Source: an uncultured Lentisphaeria bacterium (GTDB taxonomy: Bacteria; Verrucomicrobiota; Lentisphaeria; Oligosphaerales; Oligosphaeraceae). From it: a stretch of 34,537 nt of DNA. Position 1 is the first letter of the stretch, and each line of letters opens with the position of its first letter. The DNA is taken from assembly GCA_945827525.1 (NCBI GenBank), contig CALZPA010000008.1, forward strand, positions 1 through 34,537, written 5' to 3'. The notes beneath the pieces are model-generated. The model was not told the origin of the DNA. It ran no database searches and was given only the letters and a program-made list of their open reading frames with translations. Shown here one piece after another: positions 1 to 8,669 of this stretch. The translations under genes and the position numbers were made by a program.

Positions 1-915
1 GAAGCCGAGTTTGCGGAAGGTCTCGACCTGCCGTCGGATGGAGTAGCCGCCGGCGGGGGCGAGGAGGTGTCCGGCCCAGTTGGTGCCCTCGTCGAAGCAC
101 TGTTCGGTCTGGAATTCGAGCATGCGCGGGCAGGCGCGGAGCTGGGGGATGAGGGTGTCCCAGTCGATGGTGCCGTCGAAGGGCATGGCGTGGAGGTCGG
201 CGTAGCCGGTGTTGTCGTGGATGTGGCAGGTGACGACGTGGGGCTGGAGCTTGGCCAGGGCGTTGGGCTCCTCGCGGAAGCCCTCCCACCAGTTGCGGTT
301 GAGCTGGTAGTCGGGGTAGTTCTCGCGGCGTTTCCAGGGATAGGGGGTCATGATGTGGGCGTGTCCGGTGTCGTAGCAGACGCCGATGGCGGGGTTGCCG
401 GCGAAGGGGGCGATGACGCTGAGAACTTCCTGTGCGGAGTTGGTGGGCTCAAAGCTGTTTTCGACGGCGATGACGAGTCCGAGCCTTTCGGCGGTGGGAA
501 GGAGCTGTTCGAGTGACTGGATGGCGAGGGGGCGGAGCACGTCGATGGGAGTGTGGTGGGTGACGTAGTCGTAGGCGCCGATGTGCATGGTGTAGGTGCG
601 GCTGCCGAAGTTGGCGGCAAGCGCCATGGCGCGGCGGTGCGTCTCAAGCATGATGGCGCGCTGCTCGGGCTCGGGGACGTTGAGGTCGAGCTTGGGGCCG
701 AAGGGCGAGTGCATGGCGATGAGGCGGATGCCGAAGCGGTCGCAGAGCCCCTTGAGAAAGTCGATGCGGGTCTCGTCCTCAAGGCAGGCGCGGACGAGAG
801 GGTCGGTGAAGACGAAGGTGTTGACGCCCCAGTCGAGGTATTCGCGGATGATGCGTGGGTAGAGGGCGTCGGTCAGCTTGGTCCAGGGATAGTTGAAGGC
901 GAGTGGTGCGTTCAT
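1..915 (-). CDS. Sugar phosphate isomerase/epimerase (xylose isomerase-like TIM barrel), C-terminus runs off the window
   Basis: Manual reverse translation from ATG at 915: MNAPLAFNYPWTKLTDALYPRIIREYLDWGVNTFVFTDPLV...IAVENSFEPTNSAQEVLSVIAPFAGNPAIGVCYDTGHAHI...; the frame stays open to base 1; the VENS and CYDTGHAH motifs fit the AP endonuclease 2 / xylose isomerase-like TIM barrel family. Confidence 0.85.
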   Translation of the reverse strand, partial: MNAPLAFNYPWTKLTDALYPRIIREYLDWGVNTFVFTDPLVRACLEDETRIDFLKGLCDRFGIRLIAMHSPFGPKLDLNVPEPEQRAIMLETHRRAMALAANFGSRTYTMHIGAYDYVTHHTPIDVLRPLAIQSLEQLLPTAERLGLVIAVENSFEPTNSAQEVLSVIAPFAGNPAIGVCYDTGHAHIMTPYPWKRRENYPDYQLNRNWWEGFREEPNALAKLQPHVVTCHIHDNTGYADLHAMPFDGTIDWDTLIPQLRACPRMLEFQTEQCFDEGTNWAGHLLAPAGGYSIRRQVETFRKLGF

Positions 916-1404
916 GGTGGTTTGGGGGAAGGGATTGGTGGATGGGGTGGAATGGGTGGGGAATGGGTGGGGAATGGCCGTCCGTTCGGCGGAGGGTTTC
1001 CTCAGCCCTGGGAAGGGTGAGTGCGCGAAGGGGCCGTGGCGTCGGCAGGTTTGGTTTCCAGGGGCTGACGCCCCTCCCTCGTCGGGGGGCGCCCCTTCGG
1101 GGCGATGGCGCTGCCTCGCTGTTCTTGGCAAAGGGAAATATAAGCCTCGGACGGGGATTTGCGAGAAGGGTGGACGAGGTTGCGAAAAAAACAACCATAT
1201 CAGTAGGGAAGAGGGAACACCATCAAATTCGTCACGTCTAATTCGTTGCCTAATGACGAGGGTTTCAAGTTGTGGAAGGGCGGTCACACGGCCATGGAAA
1301 CGCGGAAGCCCTAAACATAACTTAAAAGGTAGTCAATATTAGGTGTGTACGATTAGGATTTCCGAAGAATGATGAGAGCAACCCATTGAGAAAGGAGAAG
1401 CATC

Positions 1405-1746
1405 ATGAAGAGAGTGATGAGTGCCGTGGTGTTCGCGGCTCTGCTGTGTTCGGCCGTTGTGCTGGCCTCGGAGTCTGGCGAGAAGGCGTCCTGTTGCAAG
1501 CAGGAGAAAGCGGCGTGCTGCAAGACTGAGTGCTGCAAGCCCAATGCGGACTGCTGCAAGCCTGGCGCGGCGTGCTGCAAGGCGGCGGCGTGCTGCAAGG
1601 GGCAGGTGAAGGCGAGCTGCTGCAAGACTGAGTGCTGCAAGCCGAGTGCGGACTGCTGCAAGCCTGGCGCGGCGTGCTGCAAGAAGGCGGATTGCTGCAA
1701 GGCGGCGGCTGACTGCTGCGCTCCGGCGGACAGTGAGAAGAAGTGA
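1405..1746 (+). CDS. Small secreted Cys-Cys-Lys repeat protein, putative metal-binding (metallothionein-like)
   Basis: 113 aa; AAAGGAG Shine-Dalgarno at about 1391-1397; signal-peptide-like MKRVMSAVVFAALLCSAVVLAS; 12 CC pairs (11 CCK and 1 CCA) separated by short spacers; followed by a strong hairpin. Confidence 0.85.
   Translation: MKRVMSAVVFAALLCSAVVLASESGEKASCCKQEKAACCKTECCKPNADCCKPGAACCKAAACCKGQVKASCCKTECCKPSADCCKPGAACCKKADCCKAAADCCAPADSEKK
1516..1581 (+). repeat. 66-bp internal direct repeat, copy 1 (partner 1618-1683)
   Basis: TGCTGCAAGACTGAGTGCTGCAAGCCCAATGCGGACTGCTGCAAGCCTGGCGCGGCGTGCTGCAAG; 2 mismatches to copy 2 by eye. Confidence 0.9.
1618..1683 (+). repeat. 66-bp internal direct repeat, copy 2 (partner 1516-1581)
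   Basis: TGCTGCAAGACTGAGTGCTGCAAGCCGAGTGCGGACTGCTGCAAGCCTGGCGCGGCGTGCTGCAAG. Confidence 0.9.
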
Positions 1747-1780
1747 CAGTCTGTCGCTGAGCTCAGTCTGAAGTCAGAAG

Positions 1781-1817
1781 AAGCCGCCCCGCGGGCCATG
1801 GACTGCGGGGCGGCTTT
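1781..1817 (+). terminator. Hairpin terminator of the Cys-Cys repeat gene, possibly bidirectional with the convergent antiporter gene
   Basis: AAGCCGCCCCGC (1781-1792) pairs with GCGGGGCGGCTT (1805-1816), 12-nt loop, then a short T-containing tail. Confidence 0.75.
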
Positions 1818-1910
1818 CCGTTTCTGGGGTGTGGGGGCTGGAGGCGATGCTGCGACCGATGCTGTGGGTAACTGCGGGCGGCTTTCCGTCTCTGGGGTGT
1901 GTGGGTGGGG

Positions 1911-3281
1911 TCAGAGGAGTTCGTCGTCCTGGACGACCTGTGGGGTTTCGATGTCTCCGCCCTGTGGGAATTCGTGGGCATTTTTGGCGATGACGAGTCG
2001 GACGAGGTTGGGGATGGGGAGAGTGGTGACGATGGAGAGGATGATGATGGCGTTGAAGAAGGCGTCGGAGAGGATGCCGAGGTCTTTGCCGACGGCGGCG
2101 GCGGCGAGGGTTGCGGAGAGCTGTGGGATGGTCATGAGTCCGGCGGCGAGTCCGGCGGCGTGTCCGAAGCCGACGAGTCGCATGGTGGCGTAGCCGCTGA
2201 GGAGTTTGCTGAGGACGAGTCCTGCGACGGTGAGGAGGATGATGGAGGCGTCGCCGGTGCCGGAGAAGGCGCGGAAGTCGGTCTGCATGCCGATGGAGAC
2301 GAAGAGGAAGGGGATGAGGAAGCCGTAGCCGATGCTCTCGAAGCGCTTGAAGAGGAGCATGTCGTGGTGTTTGACGACCTGGGAGAGTCCGAGACCGGCG
2401 ATGAAGGCTCCGACGACGAGGTTGATGCCGAAGAGTTCGCCGACGAGGACGGTGGCGAGGATGATGACCATGACGATGGTGATGAGCATGTCCTCGGAGG
2501 GTCTGAACCACTGGAGGAGTCTGTTTCCGAGCCAGCGGACGATGAGGATGGCGAGGACGAGGTAGGCGATGACGATGAGGAGGAAGATGGGCATGAAGCT
2601 GTTGCCCAGGATGGAGCCGTCGAGGTGGTCGAAGATGGAGAGGGTGCTGGAGCCGACCATGTGTGAGATGCCGTGCCGCTGTCGGAAGAGCTGGACGCTG
2701 ACGGCGAGGAGGATGATGCTGGCGATGTCGGTGATGACGGTGGAGATGAGGACGCTGGCGCCGAAGCGGCTGCGGGTGAGTCCGTGTGAGCGGATGACGG
2801 GGAAGACGATGCCGACGGAGTGCGAGGCGAAGAGGGAGGCGTAGAGGAGCTTTCCCTCGAGGGCGTTGGGCTCGAAGTGTGCGTAGACGAGGTATCCGGC
2901 GATGGCGGGGACGAGGAAGGTGGAGATGCTGAGGGCGATGACGGGGATGCGGACGGTGCGGATGAGCTTGAAGTCGGCCTCCATGCCGGCGATGGCCATG
3001 AGGAGCATGAGTCCGAGCGAGCCGAGGAGCGAGAGGAGGCTGTCGAAGACGCGCGCGGTCTCGGCGGCGGTTTCGGCGCGCTGTCCGGGCGGTCCGAGGA
3101 AGCTGAGGGCGTTTGAGAGGTGTCGGACGAGGTCGAGACCGCCGCCGTGGGGGGCAATGAGCATGCCGACGAGGAGGAGGGCGATGACCATGGGGATGCC
3201 GAAGCGCCGGAGGAGTGCGGGCACGAGTGCCATCAGGGCGGTGAGGGCGATGAAGAGGAGCAGCAGTGCGGATTGGCTCAT
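1911..3281 (-). CDS. Cation:proton antiporter (CPA2/Kef-type integral membrane protein)
   Basis: 456 aa, many hydrophobic segments; MSQSALLLLFIALTALMALVPALLRRFGIPMVIALLLVGMLIAPHG...; GELFGINLVVGAFIAGLGLS motif typical of CPA2 antiporters. Confidence 0.88.
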   Translation of the reverse strand: MSQSALLLLFIALTALMALVPALLRRFGIPMVIALLLVGMLIAPHGGGLDLVRHLSNALSFLGPPGQRAETAAETARVFDSLLSLLGSLGLMLLMAIAGMEADFKLIRTVRIPVIALSISTFLVPAIAGYLVYAHFEPNALEGKLLYASLFASHSVGIVFPVIRSHGLTRSRFGASVLISTVITDIASIILLAVSVQLFRQRHGISHMVGSSTLSIFDHLDGSILGNSFMPIFLLIVIAYLVLAILIVRWLGNRLLQWFRPSEDMLITIVMVIILATVLVGELFGINLVVGAFIAGLGLSQVVKHHDMLLFKRFESIGYGFLIPFLFVSIGMQTDFRAFSGTGDASIILLTVAGLVLSKLLSGYATMRLVGFGHAAGLAAGLMTIPQLSATLAAAAVGKDLGILSDAFFNAIIILSIVTTLPIPNLVRLVIAKNAHEFPQGGDIETPQVVQDDELL

Positions 3282-3707: not shown

Positions 3708-4727
3708 TCAGCGCAGTCTCTGGAGGAGGGTTTCGGGCGCGTCGTAGCGTCGATGGACGGCGTAGGGGGGGAATTTGGCGGCGAGGTTCTGGGGGAGGTT
3801 CTGTGGGAGGTAGCGCCAGCGCTTGTAGAGCCAGACGTACTGTTCGGGGTAGTCTCGGACGAGCGTCTCGAAGGCGTCGGCGATGTGCTGGGAGAGGGAC
3901 TCGTCGGTATCGTCTGGGGTGGGTGTGGGGAGGTGTCTGGCGATGCAGGCGAAGGAGCCGTCGGGCTGTCGGACGGAGGCGCAGACGATGATGGGGAGGT
4001 GGAGTTTCCGTGCGAGTCGTGCGGGGAGCGGTGACATGGTGGCGGGGAGTCCGAAGAAGCTGACGAAGATGCCGCCGTCGACGGGGGAGAGGTTCTGGTC
4101 GACGAGCATTCCGACGCAGTGTCCCTGTCGGAGTGCGAGGAGGACTTTTCGTGCGGCGCCGTCTCGCTTGATGATGTGGAGTCCGTTGGTTTCGCGCGCC
4201 TGGGTGACGATGGCGTCAAGGGTTTGGGAGCTGAGGGTTTCGGCGATGGCGGAGACCTGGAGTCCGGCGAGGGGGGCGCCCTGAGCGAAGACCTCCCAGT
4301 TTCCGAGGTGGGGGAGGCAGACGATGGCGGGCTGTCCGCGGAGACGGTCGAGGAAGCCGGGGGGCCAGGCGGGGAGGAGGCGCGAGATGAGGGTGGGTCG
4401 GTGGATGAGCCTGGCGGTCTCGAGTCCGGTGAGGATGGAGCTGGCGATGCTCTGTCGCGCGAGCTGTTCGCGTTGTGTCGCGTCGAGTTCCGGGAAGGCG
4501 ACGGTGAGGTTGTCGCAGACGGTTTGGAACGCCTGGAGCCGCAGTCGTGCGCAGGTGCGGGCGAGGGTGTCGGCGAGTCGTCGGGCGAAGCAGGGCGAGA
4601 GTCTCCCCAGGACTGCCAGTACAGGGCGGGTGAGGAGGCTCATGACCAGGGCTCGGACGGCGCGCCGGGCATTTCTGGCGCGCCGTCTGAGGGTTTTGCG
4701 TCGGCACGGTTCCACGGTGGGGGGCAC
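3708..4727 (-). CDS. Lysophospholipid/lipid A acyltransferase (LpxL/HtrB family)
   Basis: 339 aa from a GTG start at 4727 (an internal ATG at 4643 is possible); HLGNWE (HX4E) motif and GMLVDQNLSPVDGGIFVSFFGLPATMSPLPARLARK. Confidence 0.85.
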   Translation of the reverse strand: MPPTVEPCRRKTLRRRARNARRAVRALVMSLLTRPVLAVLGRLSPCFARRLADTLARTCARLRLQAFQTVCDNLTVAFPELDATQREQLARQSIASSILTGLETARLIHRPTLISRLLPAWPPGFLDRLRGQPAIVCLPHLGNWEVFAQGAPLAGLQVSAIAETLSSQTLDAIVTQARETNGLHIIKRDGAARKVLLALRQGHCVGMLVDQNLSPVDGGIFVSFFGLPATMSPLPARLARKLHLPIIVCASVRQPDGSFACIARHLPTPTPDDTDESLSQHIADAFETLVRDYPEQYVWLYKRWRYLPQNLPQNLAAKFPPYAVHRRYDAPETLLQRLR

Positions 4728-6394: not shown

Positions 6395-7456
6395 ATGGGG
6401 CTGGATTTGGCCGCGAGACGGAAGCTGGTGGACGAGATGCTGGGGCGGCAGTTGGACCGTTGCCGTGGGCAGGTGCCCGAGCATCTTCTCAATGTGCTGG
6501 AGGGATATCTGTCCGGTGGGGGGAAACGGGTGCGCCCGCTGCTGATGATGCTGTGCTGCGAGGGTCTTGGCGGCTCGGCGGAGGACATCGTGCCGGCGGC
6601 GGCGGCGGTGGAGATGTACCACAACTGGACGCTGATACACGACGATGTGATTGACCATGACGCGCGTCGCCGTGGCCGTCCGACGGGTCATGTGATTGGG
6701 TCTCGGGAGGGAAGCGAGACGTTTGGGCTGGGCGGGACCGCGGCCGGCGACTACGGCATCAGCGTGGCGATCCTCTCGGGCGACCTGCTGCACGGGCTGT
6801 CGCTGGAGCTGCTGGCGTCGCTGGCGCCGTCGTATCCGAAGGTGATACCGGCGCTGCTGCAGCGGATGAGCGGTCGGCTGTGCCGGGAGCTGATTGGGGG
6901 CGAGCAGCTGGACGTGGAGCTGAGCCACATGCCGTTCGAGCGTGTGGGCGAGTCGCTGATACAACTGATGATGAACGGCAAGACGGGGGCGCTGTTCCGC
7001 TTCGCGATGGAGTGCGGCGCCGCGCTGGGGCTTGACTCCATCGAGGACGAGCGCATCAGCGCCATGGGCATCTTCGGCAGCAAGTTCGGGCTGTCGTTCC
7101 AGCTTCAGGACGACCTGCTGGGCATCTTCGGCTCGGACCAGAAGCTGGGCAAGCCGGTGGGCTCGGACATCCGCGAGGGCAAGCGGACGCTGCTGGCCGC
7201 ACGGACGCTGCAGGGGCTGGAGGGCGGCCGACGCGCCCGCTTCCTGGAGCTGTACGGGAAGGCCGACGTCACGTCTGGGGACATCGCGGAGGTTCAGGAG
7301 CTGATGCGCGAGAGCGGCGCGGCGGAGTCGGTGCGCAAGTCGGCGGCCCGCATCCTGGAGCAGGCGCTCCAGACGCTTCGCGGCGTCATGGCGCCGTCCG
7401 AGGCCTGCCTGGCCCTGGAGTCGCTGACGATGGACATGCTCTCGCGCGAGGTCTGA
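6395..7456 (+). CDS. Polyprenyl (trans-isoprenyl) diphosphate synthase
   Basis: ATG 6395 preceded by AGGAGCAGGA; GGGKRVRPLL, first Asp-rich motif LIHDDVIDHD, second motif FQLQDDLLGIFG. Confidence 0.92.
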   Translation: MGLDLAARRKLVDEMLGRQLDRCRGQVPEHLLNVLEGYLSGGGKRVRPLLMMLCCEGLGGSAEDIVPAAAAVEMYHNWTLIHDDVIDHDARRRGRPTGHVIGSREGSETFGLGGTAAGDYGISVAILSGDLLHGLSLELLASLAPSYPKVIPALLQRMSGRLCRELIGGEQLDVELSHMPFERVGESLIQLMMNGKTGALFRFAMECGAALGLDSIEDERISAMGIFGSKFGLSFQLQDDLLGIFGSDQKLGKPVGSDIREGKRTLLAARTLQGLEGGRRARFLELYGKADVTSGDIAEVQELMRESGAAESVRKSAARILEQALQTLRGVMAPSEACLALESLTMDMLSREV

Positions 7457-7486
7457 GCCGACGCGGGGAGAGCCGCAGACAGGACA

Positions 7487-7525
7487 AAGGCCGGCCGCCG
7501 GGGTGCCACCCCGGCGGCCGGCCTT
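7487..7525. terminator. Strong hairpin between convergent genes (bidirectional terminator)
   Basis: Perfect 17-bp stem AAGGCCGGCCGCCGGGG / CCCCGGCGGCCGGCCTT with a 5-nt loop TGCCA. Confidence 0.85.
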
Positions 7526-7550
7526 GTTTGCTGTTCAGGGCGCGGGTGTC

Positions 7551-8669
7551 TCAGTGATGGGAGAAGACGCGTTCGGGAGCATGGAAGAGGGCGACGCCGA
7601 GCTCGTTGGCGCGGATGATGACGTCGGCGTCCTTGAGGGAGCCGGCGGGTGCGATGATGGCGGTGACGCCGGCGGCGGCGGCGACCTCGACGCCGTCGGG
7701 GAAGGGGAAGAAGCCGTCGGAGGCCATGACGGAGCCCTTGATGCTCTCCTTGCCGTGGTACTTGTCCTTGAATTTGACGATGGCCTGTTCGACGGCGCCG
7801 ACGCGGTCCTGCTCGCCGGTTCCGACGCAGAGGGTGCCGCCGTTCTTGACGATGATGACGCCGTTGGAGCGGACGGAGATGTTGATGTACCAGGCGGCGA
7901 GGAGGTCGTCGAGCTGCTCGGGGGTTGCCTTGACGGTGGAGACGACGTGTCCGAGTGTCTTGGAGTCGGCCTCGGCGGGCTTGAGGTCGGCGACGGAGCG
8001 GATGTGGGTGAGGAGCGGGTCGGCGACGACGACGCAGCCGTCGGCGAGGACCTTGAAGGTCTGGTATCCGGCGACGTCATCGCCGACATACTTGGGGAGG
8101 AGTGAGAGGTCGCCGCACTTGAGGATGCGGATGTGGCGGTTGAGCTTGGAGTCGGGGTTGGAGAAGATGGCGACGGCCTCGTCGTCGAAGTCGGGTGCGA
8201 CGACGCACTCGACGAAGGTCTTCATGATTTCGCTGGCGGTGTCGGCGTCGACCTTGGTGTTGAAGGCGATGACGGCGCCGAAGACGGCGCGGTCGTCGCA
8301 GTCGCGGGCCTTGATGTAGACGTCCTTGAGGGAGTCGCCGGGGGCGGCGATGGCGGCGCCGCAGGGGTTGACGTGCTTCATGCAGGCGCAGGCGGGGCGG
8401 TCGAAGAACTTGACGATGTTGAGGGAGTAGGAGATGTCCTCGAGGTTGGTCTGGGAGAGTCCGGACTTTCCGTTCTTGAGGATGACCATGTCGCCGATGA
8501 CGGCGTTGCGGTTGGCGGGCTTGTAGAAGGCGGCGGTCTGGTGTGGGTTGGTGCCGTAGCGGAGGTCGTCGACCTTGGTGTAGTCGTGTCCGAGGAAGGA
8601 GGCGGTGTCGGGGAAGGAGCCGACGTTCTTGGAGAGGTAGGTCTGGCGGTTGAGTTTGTCGTCTGCCAT
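7551..8669 (-). CDS. Stand-alone AICAR transformylase (PurH C-terminal domain-like), no fused IMP cyclohydrolase domain
   Basis: 372 aa; DLRYGTNPHQTAAFYKP, KHVNPCGAAIA, DRAVFGAVIAFN, ASDGFFPFPDGVEVAAAAGVTAIIAPAGSLKDADVI. Confidence 0.9.
   Translation of the reverse strand: MADDKLNRQTYLSKNVGSFPDTASFLGHDYTKVDDLRYGTNPHQTAAFYKPANRNAVIGDMVILKNGKSGLSQTNLEDISYSLNIVKFFDRPACACMKHVNPCGAAIAAPGDSLKDVYIKARDCDDRAVFGAVIAFNTKVDADTASEIMKTFVECVVAPDFDDEAVAIFSNPDSKLNRHIRILKCGDLSLLPKYVGDDVAGYQTFKVLADGCVVVADPLLTHIRSVADLKPAEADSKTLGHVVSTVKATPEQLDDLLAAWYINISVRSNGVIIVKNGGTLCVGTGEQDRVGAVEQAIVKFKDKYHGKESIKGSVMASDGFFPFPDGVEVAAAAGVTAIIAPAGSLKDADVIIRANELGVALFHAPERVFSHH

Follow-up and report, generated by a model that had tools for sequence, protein, structure and literature searches.

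What is the function of a small, apparently exported protein built almost entirely of Cys-Cys-Lys repeats, encoded by an uncultured bacterium of the ruminant gut? The gene in question (Table 1) lies in a stretch of 34,537 nucleotides of Lentisphaeria DNA, referred to here as the window. We consider it probable, if well short of certain, that its product (the CCK protein) is exported and acts, much as a metallothionein does, as a thiol sink that takes up soft metals and is induced by envelope stress. The following sections set out the features of the gene, its relatives and its promoter, and weigh this proposal against other possible roles for an exported, cysteine-rich chain.

A gene for a protein with all cysteines in pairs

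The N-terminus of the CCK protein has visible n-, h- and c-regions (mean Kyte-Doolittle hydrophobicity of 2.66 over residues 4-20) and aligns with the signals of its homologues, in agreement with the signal-peptide-like N-terminus described in the initial annotation. Cleavage at the predicted site would release a mature chain that starts at residue 22 and comprises 92 residues and 9.3 kDa, contains 24 Cys (26%), and lacks F, W, Y, and H altogether. Every Cys falls within one of 12 CC pairs and none stands alone, as counted before for a chain of about 92 residues; the spacers listed in the same annotation (e.g. TE, PGAA, and KAD) are likewise correct, with QEKAA and GQVKAS additionally present. 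When the same residues were shuffled (n = 5000), CC occurred 4.8 times on average and at most 10 times, compared with the 12 observed, while CCK occurred 1.1 times on average and at most six times, compared with 11.

The gene has its own Shine-Dalgarno sequence and, as previously noted, is a plus-strand gene amid minus-strand genes, with a divergent neighbor on one side and a convergent neighbor on the other. Judged by its sequence features and by the homologues described below, the ORF is a real gene under selection. The terminator that had been assigned to it holds up in part: a strong hairpin (-38.4 kcal/mol; z of -3.58, or -3.6 when rounded) follows the gene, but it has only a short, interrupted T tract and went uncalled in a consensus terminator scan. 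A 30-bp direct repeat (93%) also lies 3' of the gene, at 1808-1837 and 1876-1905, and takes in part of the hairpin. Neither Rfam models nor a tRNA scan gave a match in the window.

Table 1. Features of the CCK gene region in the window, and SdhC-like genes with CC tails at two other loci
Feature	Position	Strand	Basis or remark
Divergent neighbor: AP_endonuc_2, sugar-phosphate isomerase/epimerase-type TIM barrel, not DUF692/MNIO	1..915	-	
A-rich element AAAAAAACAACC / AAAAAACAACC, 5' of the -35	1185..1196	+	by eye; also before several homologues
ECF-sigma-type promoter GGAAC-N17-GTCTAA, GGAACACCATCAAATTCGTCACGTCTAA	1214..1241	+	163 nt 5' of ATG
Shine-Dalgarno AGGAG	1393..1397	+	7 nt 5' of ATG; read from sequence
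CCK-repeat protein gene, 113 aa including signal	1405..1746	+	ORF, homologues, dN/dS
Signal peptide MKRVMSAVVFAALLCSAVVLA, type I-like, predicted cleavage after VLA	1405..1467	+	visible n-, h- and c-region
Mature chain with 12 CC pairs (CCK in 11)	1468..1743	+	sequence
66-bp segment, copy 1, CCKTECCKPNADCCKPGAACCK	1516..1581	+	
66-bp segment, copy 2, CCKTECCKPSADCCKPGAACCK	1618..1683	+	2 mismatches vs copy 1
Strong 3' hairpin, probable terminator, poor T tract	about 1774..1827	+	folding, inverted repeat
Convergent neighbor: Na_H_Exchanger-family transporter	1911..3281	-	
SdhC-like gene with CC tail, locus L051	ORF from about 3214; tail around 4045-4134	+	
SdhC-like gene with CC tail, locus L053	4999-5928	-	adjoins 716-aa SdhA-like gene

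Repeat expansion, homologues, and gene neighborhoods

The two copies of the 66-bp segment sit within a 102-bp period of 90% match. They differ at exactly the two positions that had been counted by eye, and the duplication bears out the recent internal expansion that was proposed from it. Protein queries against genome contigs gave no match in close relatives; the DNA pattern for CCKxGAxCCK did yield matches. Homologues of the CCK protein are present in 11 of the 29 genomes of the same Victivallales family, spread over six genera; 19 genomes searched from other families of the order had none. A phylum sample of 388 genomes contained two more distant relatives, which belong to a different family of the class. 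Most of the named relatives are Victivallales/Lentisphaeria MAGs that come from gut or rumen collections of goats, sheep, and water buffalo. A tblastn search of plasmids and phages with the CCK protein gave no match. The conserved CC spacing and variable copy number that the initial annotation led us to look for among PVC genomes are both found within the Victivallales family: homologues carry 5-18 CC pairs, mostly seven or six residues apart. For four of seven close homologue pairs dN/dS was about 0.1, with 0.15-0.38 in the others, and the homologues are under purifying selection. Several of their N-termini are lipobox-like (AGC) and others are type I-like.

A protein of this kind might serve as a structural component of the envelope, cross-linked by disulfides in the spirit of Chlamydia OmcA or the CCxPx hair keratin-associated proteins. 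OmcA is a small Cys-rich lipoprotein of Chlamydia, which also belongs to PVC, and the keratin-associated proteins are comparable. While the phylum, the lipobox-like signals of some relatives, and the repetitive CC design would suit such a role, an essential scaffold would hardly be expected to show the patchy presence in the family and the range of 5-18 CC pairs seen here, and the promoter is of a stress type. Moreover, the host is an anaerobe in whose genome (about 95% complete) the oxidases DsbB and VKOR were undetected, so that the thiols plausibly remain reduced. We therefore regard a cross-linked structural protein as quite unlikely.

Gene neighborhoods offer a different lead. Several homologues of family f1 lie near nadA and mnmA, and others near hydE, larE, or thiS. 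In family f16 the gene order is cysK-CC-nadA (L167:512-3220, and L168, in which mnmA follows). The proximity of Victivallales copies to these genes makes a link to sulfur and Fe-S metabolism a possibility, with the CCK protein acting as a reserve of cysteine or sulfur. Given that the protein is exported, that neighbors vary among genera, and that the window copy has none of these genes beside it, a sulfur reserve is very unlikely.

An ECF-type promoter motif common to the CCK gene and a sigma factor gene

A scan of the window found no sigma-70-type promoter for the CCK gene; in its place we identified an ECF-sigma-type motif, a new observation that the initial annotation had missed. RpoE-type ECF sigma factors have been reported to use GGAACTT as their -35 element (PMC12153292). 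The motif GGAAC-N17-GTC occurs upstream of all 11 homologues examined, the window included, with a constant 17-nt spacing (shuffle mean, 0.085 of 11). GGAAC-N16-18-GTCTAA has a single match in the 34.5-kb window, where shuffles expect 0.00, and the exact GGAAC-N17-GTCTAA occurs once in the 3.7 Mb of the organism's own genome, at this same site.

A GGAAC-N17-GTC-type motif also precedes an ECF sigma factor gene in genome G001, and this sigma factor has one strong orthologue per genome in all 11 genomes. The orthologue of the window's own genome (G000:C25:7469-8035, also delimited as 7433-8035) matches Pfam Sigma70_r2/r4. GGAAC-N17/18-GTC lies at the gene start of 10 of the 11 orthologues, the exception being a gene before which the contig extends for just 71 nt. 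The predicted start codon abuts the motif or lies partly within it in most of the genomes, which would require a leaderless mRNA or a re-annotated start. Autoregulation has been named a hallmark of ECF factors (PMC12153292). The conserved -35/-10 pair with its fixed spacing is thus common to the CCK genes and the ECF sigma gene, and we infer that this sigma factor may transcribe the CCK gene under envelope stress. Downstream of the sigma gene, the genomes read encode a putative anti-sigma factor with an HxxxCxxC motif and no match to a Pfam model; HxxxCxxC characterizes anti-sigma factors that bind zinc, the archetype being RsrA, a sensor of disulfide stress (PMC4960319). Among the orthologue loci (L149-L159), the sigma gene lies downstream of tpiA in the two that were read.

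Two species of genus g6 (G015:C558, locus L142, and G005:C78, locus L147) have the same motif before a gene for a MoxR-type AAA ATPase, and one genome of that genus has it before htpG. Genome-wide, GGAAC-N17-GTCTAA is in no excess over a reversed control, and a looser pattern gave eight sites in the organism's own genome, compared with 10 in the control, and two of the eight belong to the CCK and ECF sigma genes. Since motif counts do not exceed those of reversed controls, we do not claim a regulon beyond these two genes, and a wider one stands as a suggestion.

This regulatory context bears on the main rival to the metal sink, namely that the CCK protein is a sacrificial redox buffer, whose exported vicinal dithiols would scavenge oxidants, electrophiles, or disulfide stress whenever the envelope of an anaerobe is exposed to oxygen or oxidants, with any metal binding being incidental. 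Such a role would fit a promoter type common to an ECF sigma gene with a putative HxxxCxxC anti-sigma downstream, the occurrence of the motif before the MoxR-ATPase gene and htpG in genus g6, and the Fe-S genes nadA and hydE near several relatives. A simple thiol buffer would, however, have no need of strict vicinal pairs at a 6-7-residue spacing, no reductase partner is encoded alongside the CCK gene, and look-alike proteins of other phyla cluster with metal resistance (see below). We judge a redox buffer to be unlikely, though a candidate to be taken seriously.

Comparison with known thiol-rich proteins

Neither Pfam (up to an E-value of 10) nor PDB chains yielded a match to the CCK protein, and a match to NCBIfam Asr (E 0.28; 12 bits, where the cut-off is 50) was dismissed as one of composition only. 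With no family match in Pfam, NCBIfam, or PDB, the earlier statement that the protein fits no named metallothionein class stands. The open-access literature held no description of such a CC-repeat family, subscription journals being outside the scope of the search.

Bacterial metallothioneins are few and mostly cytosolic. Like metallothioneins such as SmtA/BmtA and MymT, and the ciliate CdMTs of family 7a, the CCK protein is small, free of aromatic residues, and rich in Cys with Lys neighbors, and it has undergone modular repeat expansion; its mass, its Cys content (within about 15-35%), and its lack of F, W, Y, and H are those expected of a metallothionein. It differs in matching no metallothionein family by sequence, in having a conserved export-type N-terminus rather than the usual cytosolic location, and in carrying its Cys all in CC pairs, with no CXC or CXXC; its metal clusters are putative. 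In the CdMTs of Tetrahymena, vicinal XCCX ranks with the commonest Cys clusters, and among Tetrahymena metallothioneins XCCX and CCC distinguish the Cd type from the Cu type with its CXC (PMC4862169), a weak hint that the metals of the CCK protein are divalent. The CCK protein thus may work like a metallothionein, even though its sequence does not place it among them.

The abundance of thiols is also reminiscent of copper storage proteins (Csp), whose thiols store Cu(I). Csp1 of methanotrophs is exported. Whereas Csps are pre-folded four-helix bundles (PMC7558416), AlphaFold predicted neither such a bundle nor any other stable fold for the apo chain (pLDDT 51, pTM 0.26, from a shallow alignment of 10). 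This prediction is compatible with an intrinsically unstructured chain, such as an apo-metallothionein would have.

Bufferins and other Buf_EGKCG-oxazolin precursors resemble the CCK protein in having a signal peptide, a repeated Cys motif, and presumed periplasmic metal chelation, and the precursor layout is the same (PMC12452194). If the CCK protein were a RiPP precursor of this kind, an MNIO would convert its Cys to thiooxazoles for copper chelation. MNIO (PF05114) was undetected in the window genome and in the ten relatives with the gene (0 of 11), and we rejected a MNIO/bufferin identity; the repeat is CCK in place of EGKCG, and Buf_EGKCG-type precursors rarely occur without MNIO genes (PMC12452194). 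A modified peptide is accordingly the least credible of the roles considered here.

Proteins of similar design in metal-resistance loci

A search for the pattern CCKxGAxCCK over 84,980 genomes identified CC proteins that are likewise small and exported at 74 sphingomonad loci, as well as in Bryobacterales, other Acidobacteria, Pyrinomonadaceae, Pedobacter, and Verrucomicrobiaceae. Those of sphingomonads, Bryobacterales, and Pyrinomonadaceae combine a signal peptide with CCKxGAxCCK units, as does the CCK protein. The look-alikes differ from it in having 2-7 CC pairs and often a Met/His-containing tail, and in sphingomonads they reside in metal-resistance loci. Within 8 kb, 66 of the 74 sphingomonad loci hold at least one metal-resistance-type gene and 63 at least two, as raw counts with no random-locus baseline (genes counted: MerR, glutaredoxin-MauE, DUF411, DUF305, RND, ZIP, CDF, ArsB, and ArsC). 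These loci hint at copper as well. The look-alikes resemble the Victivallales family in design and are at most candidate homologues of it. In Bacteroidetes, one protein (L084:3497-4912, minus strand) has an HMA-like domain (E 1.9e-4, falling just short of the cut-off in a scan by itself) fused to a CC-repeat tail, and its neighbors are a clear HMA protein and a small Cys-rich protein.

A proposed thiol sink at the envelope

Metal or redox buffering outside the cytoplasm, as suggested by the initial annotation, is partly supported and is, by context, the best-supported role. We infer metal binding by the CCK protein, and several lines of evidence favor the metal sink: the high content of exclusively vicinal Cys beside Lys, without aromatics; the retention of CC pairs among homologues of varying copy number, with dN/dS of about 0.1-0.38; export signals throughout, several of them lipobox-like; an ECF-type promoter conserved in 11 of 11; the MNIO modifying enzyme being undetected in 11 of 11 genomes; DsbB and VKOR being undetected in the organism's own genome; and the metal-resistance loci of sphingomonad look-alikes, together with the HMA-like fusion in Bacteroidetes. 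Counting against it, neither the window gene nor the Victivallales homologues examined have a metal gene next to them, the ECF promoter equally fits oxidant or general envelope stress, and the sphingomonad proteins are alike in design and at most candidate homologues.

We hypothesize that the ECF sigma factor would transcribe the CCK gene under envelope stress and that the protein would be exported via Sec to the periplasm, with a lipoprotein anchor in some relatives, where its vicinal thiols would stay reduced in the anaerobic host. Cys-Cys pairs from different repeats could there wrap Cu(I), Zn, Cd, Ag, Hg, or similar metals in thiolate clusters, with Lys residues balancing the cluster charge, and the protein would buffer metal before its entry to the cell, at a capacity tuned by the gain or loss of repeat units. 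If true, metal buffering extends to the envelope through an exported, CC-only type of protein that has repeat-tuned capacity, is linked to a promoter of envelope-stress type, and recurs in several phyla. Such a type would account for a group of small Cys-rich proteins that lack annotation, represent a natural, tunable metal sorbent, and be relevant to the way in which microbes of the ruminant gut deal with Zn and Cu from the diet.

More generally, these proteins might form a class of extracytoplasmic metallothioneins composed solely of vicinal Cys-Cys-Lys units and ECF-controlled in Victivallales, a design that would have arisen repeatedly in other phyla, both in small exported proteins and in periplasm-facing tails of SdhC-like and RnfG-like respiratory membrane proteins; we offer this broader grouping tentatively and hold it to be somewhat doubtful.

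Tails of this kind were observed in two protein types. In rumen Prevotellaceae/Paludibacteraceae, an SdhC-like fumarate reductase/succinate dehydrogenase cytochrome b (weak match to Pfam Sdh_cyt) carries a Cys-rich tail of 80-100 residues with CCKxGAxCCK units after its last membrane helix (Table 1). In ruminant Bacteroidaceae, RnfG/NqrC-like FMN_bind proteins (L058, from 2972 onward on the plus strand, and L103, on the minus strand, with a Pfam E-value of 6.6e-15) have a long Cys-rich tail with CCKPGADCCK units.
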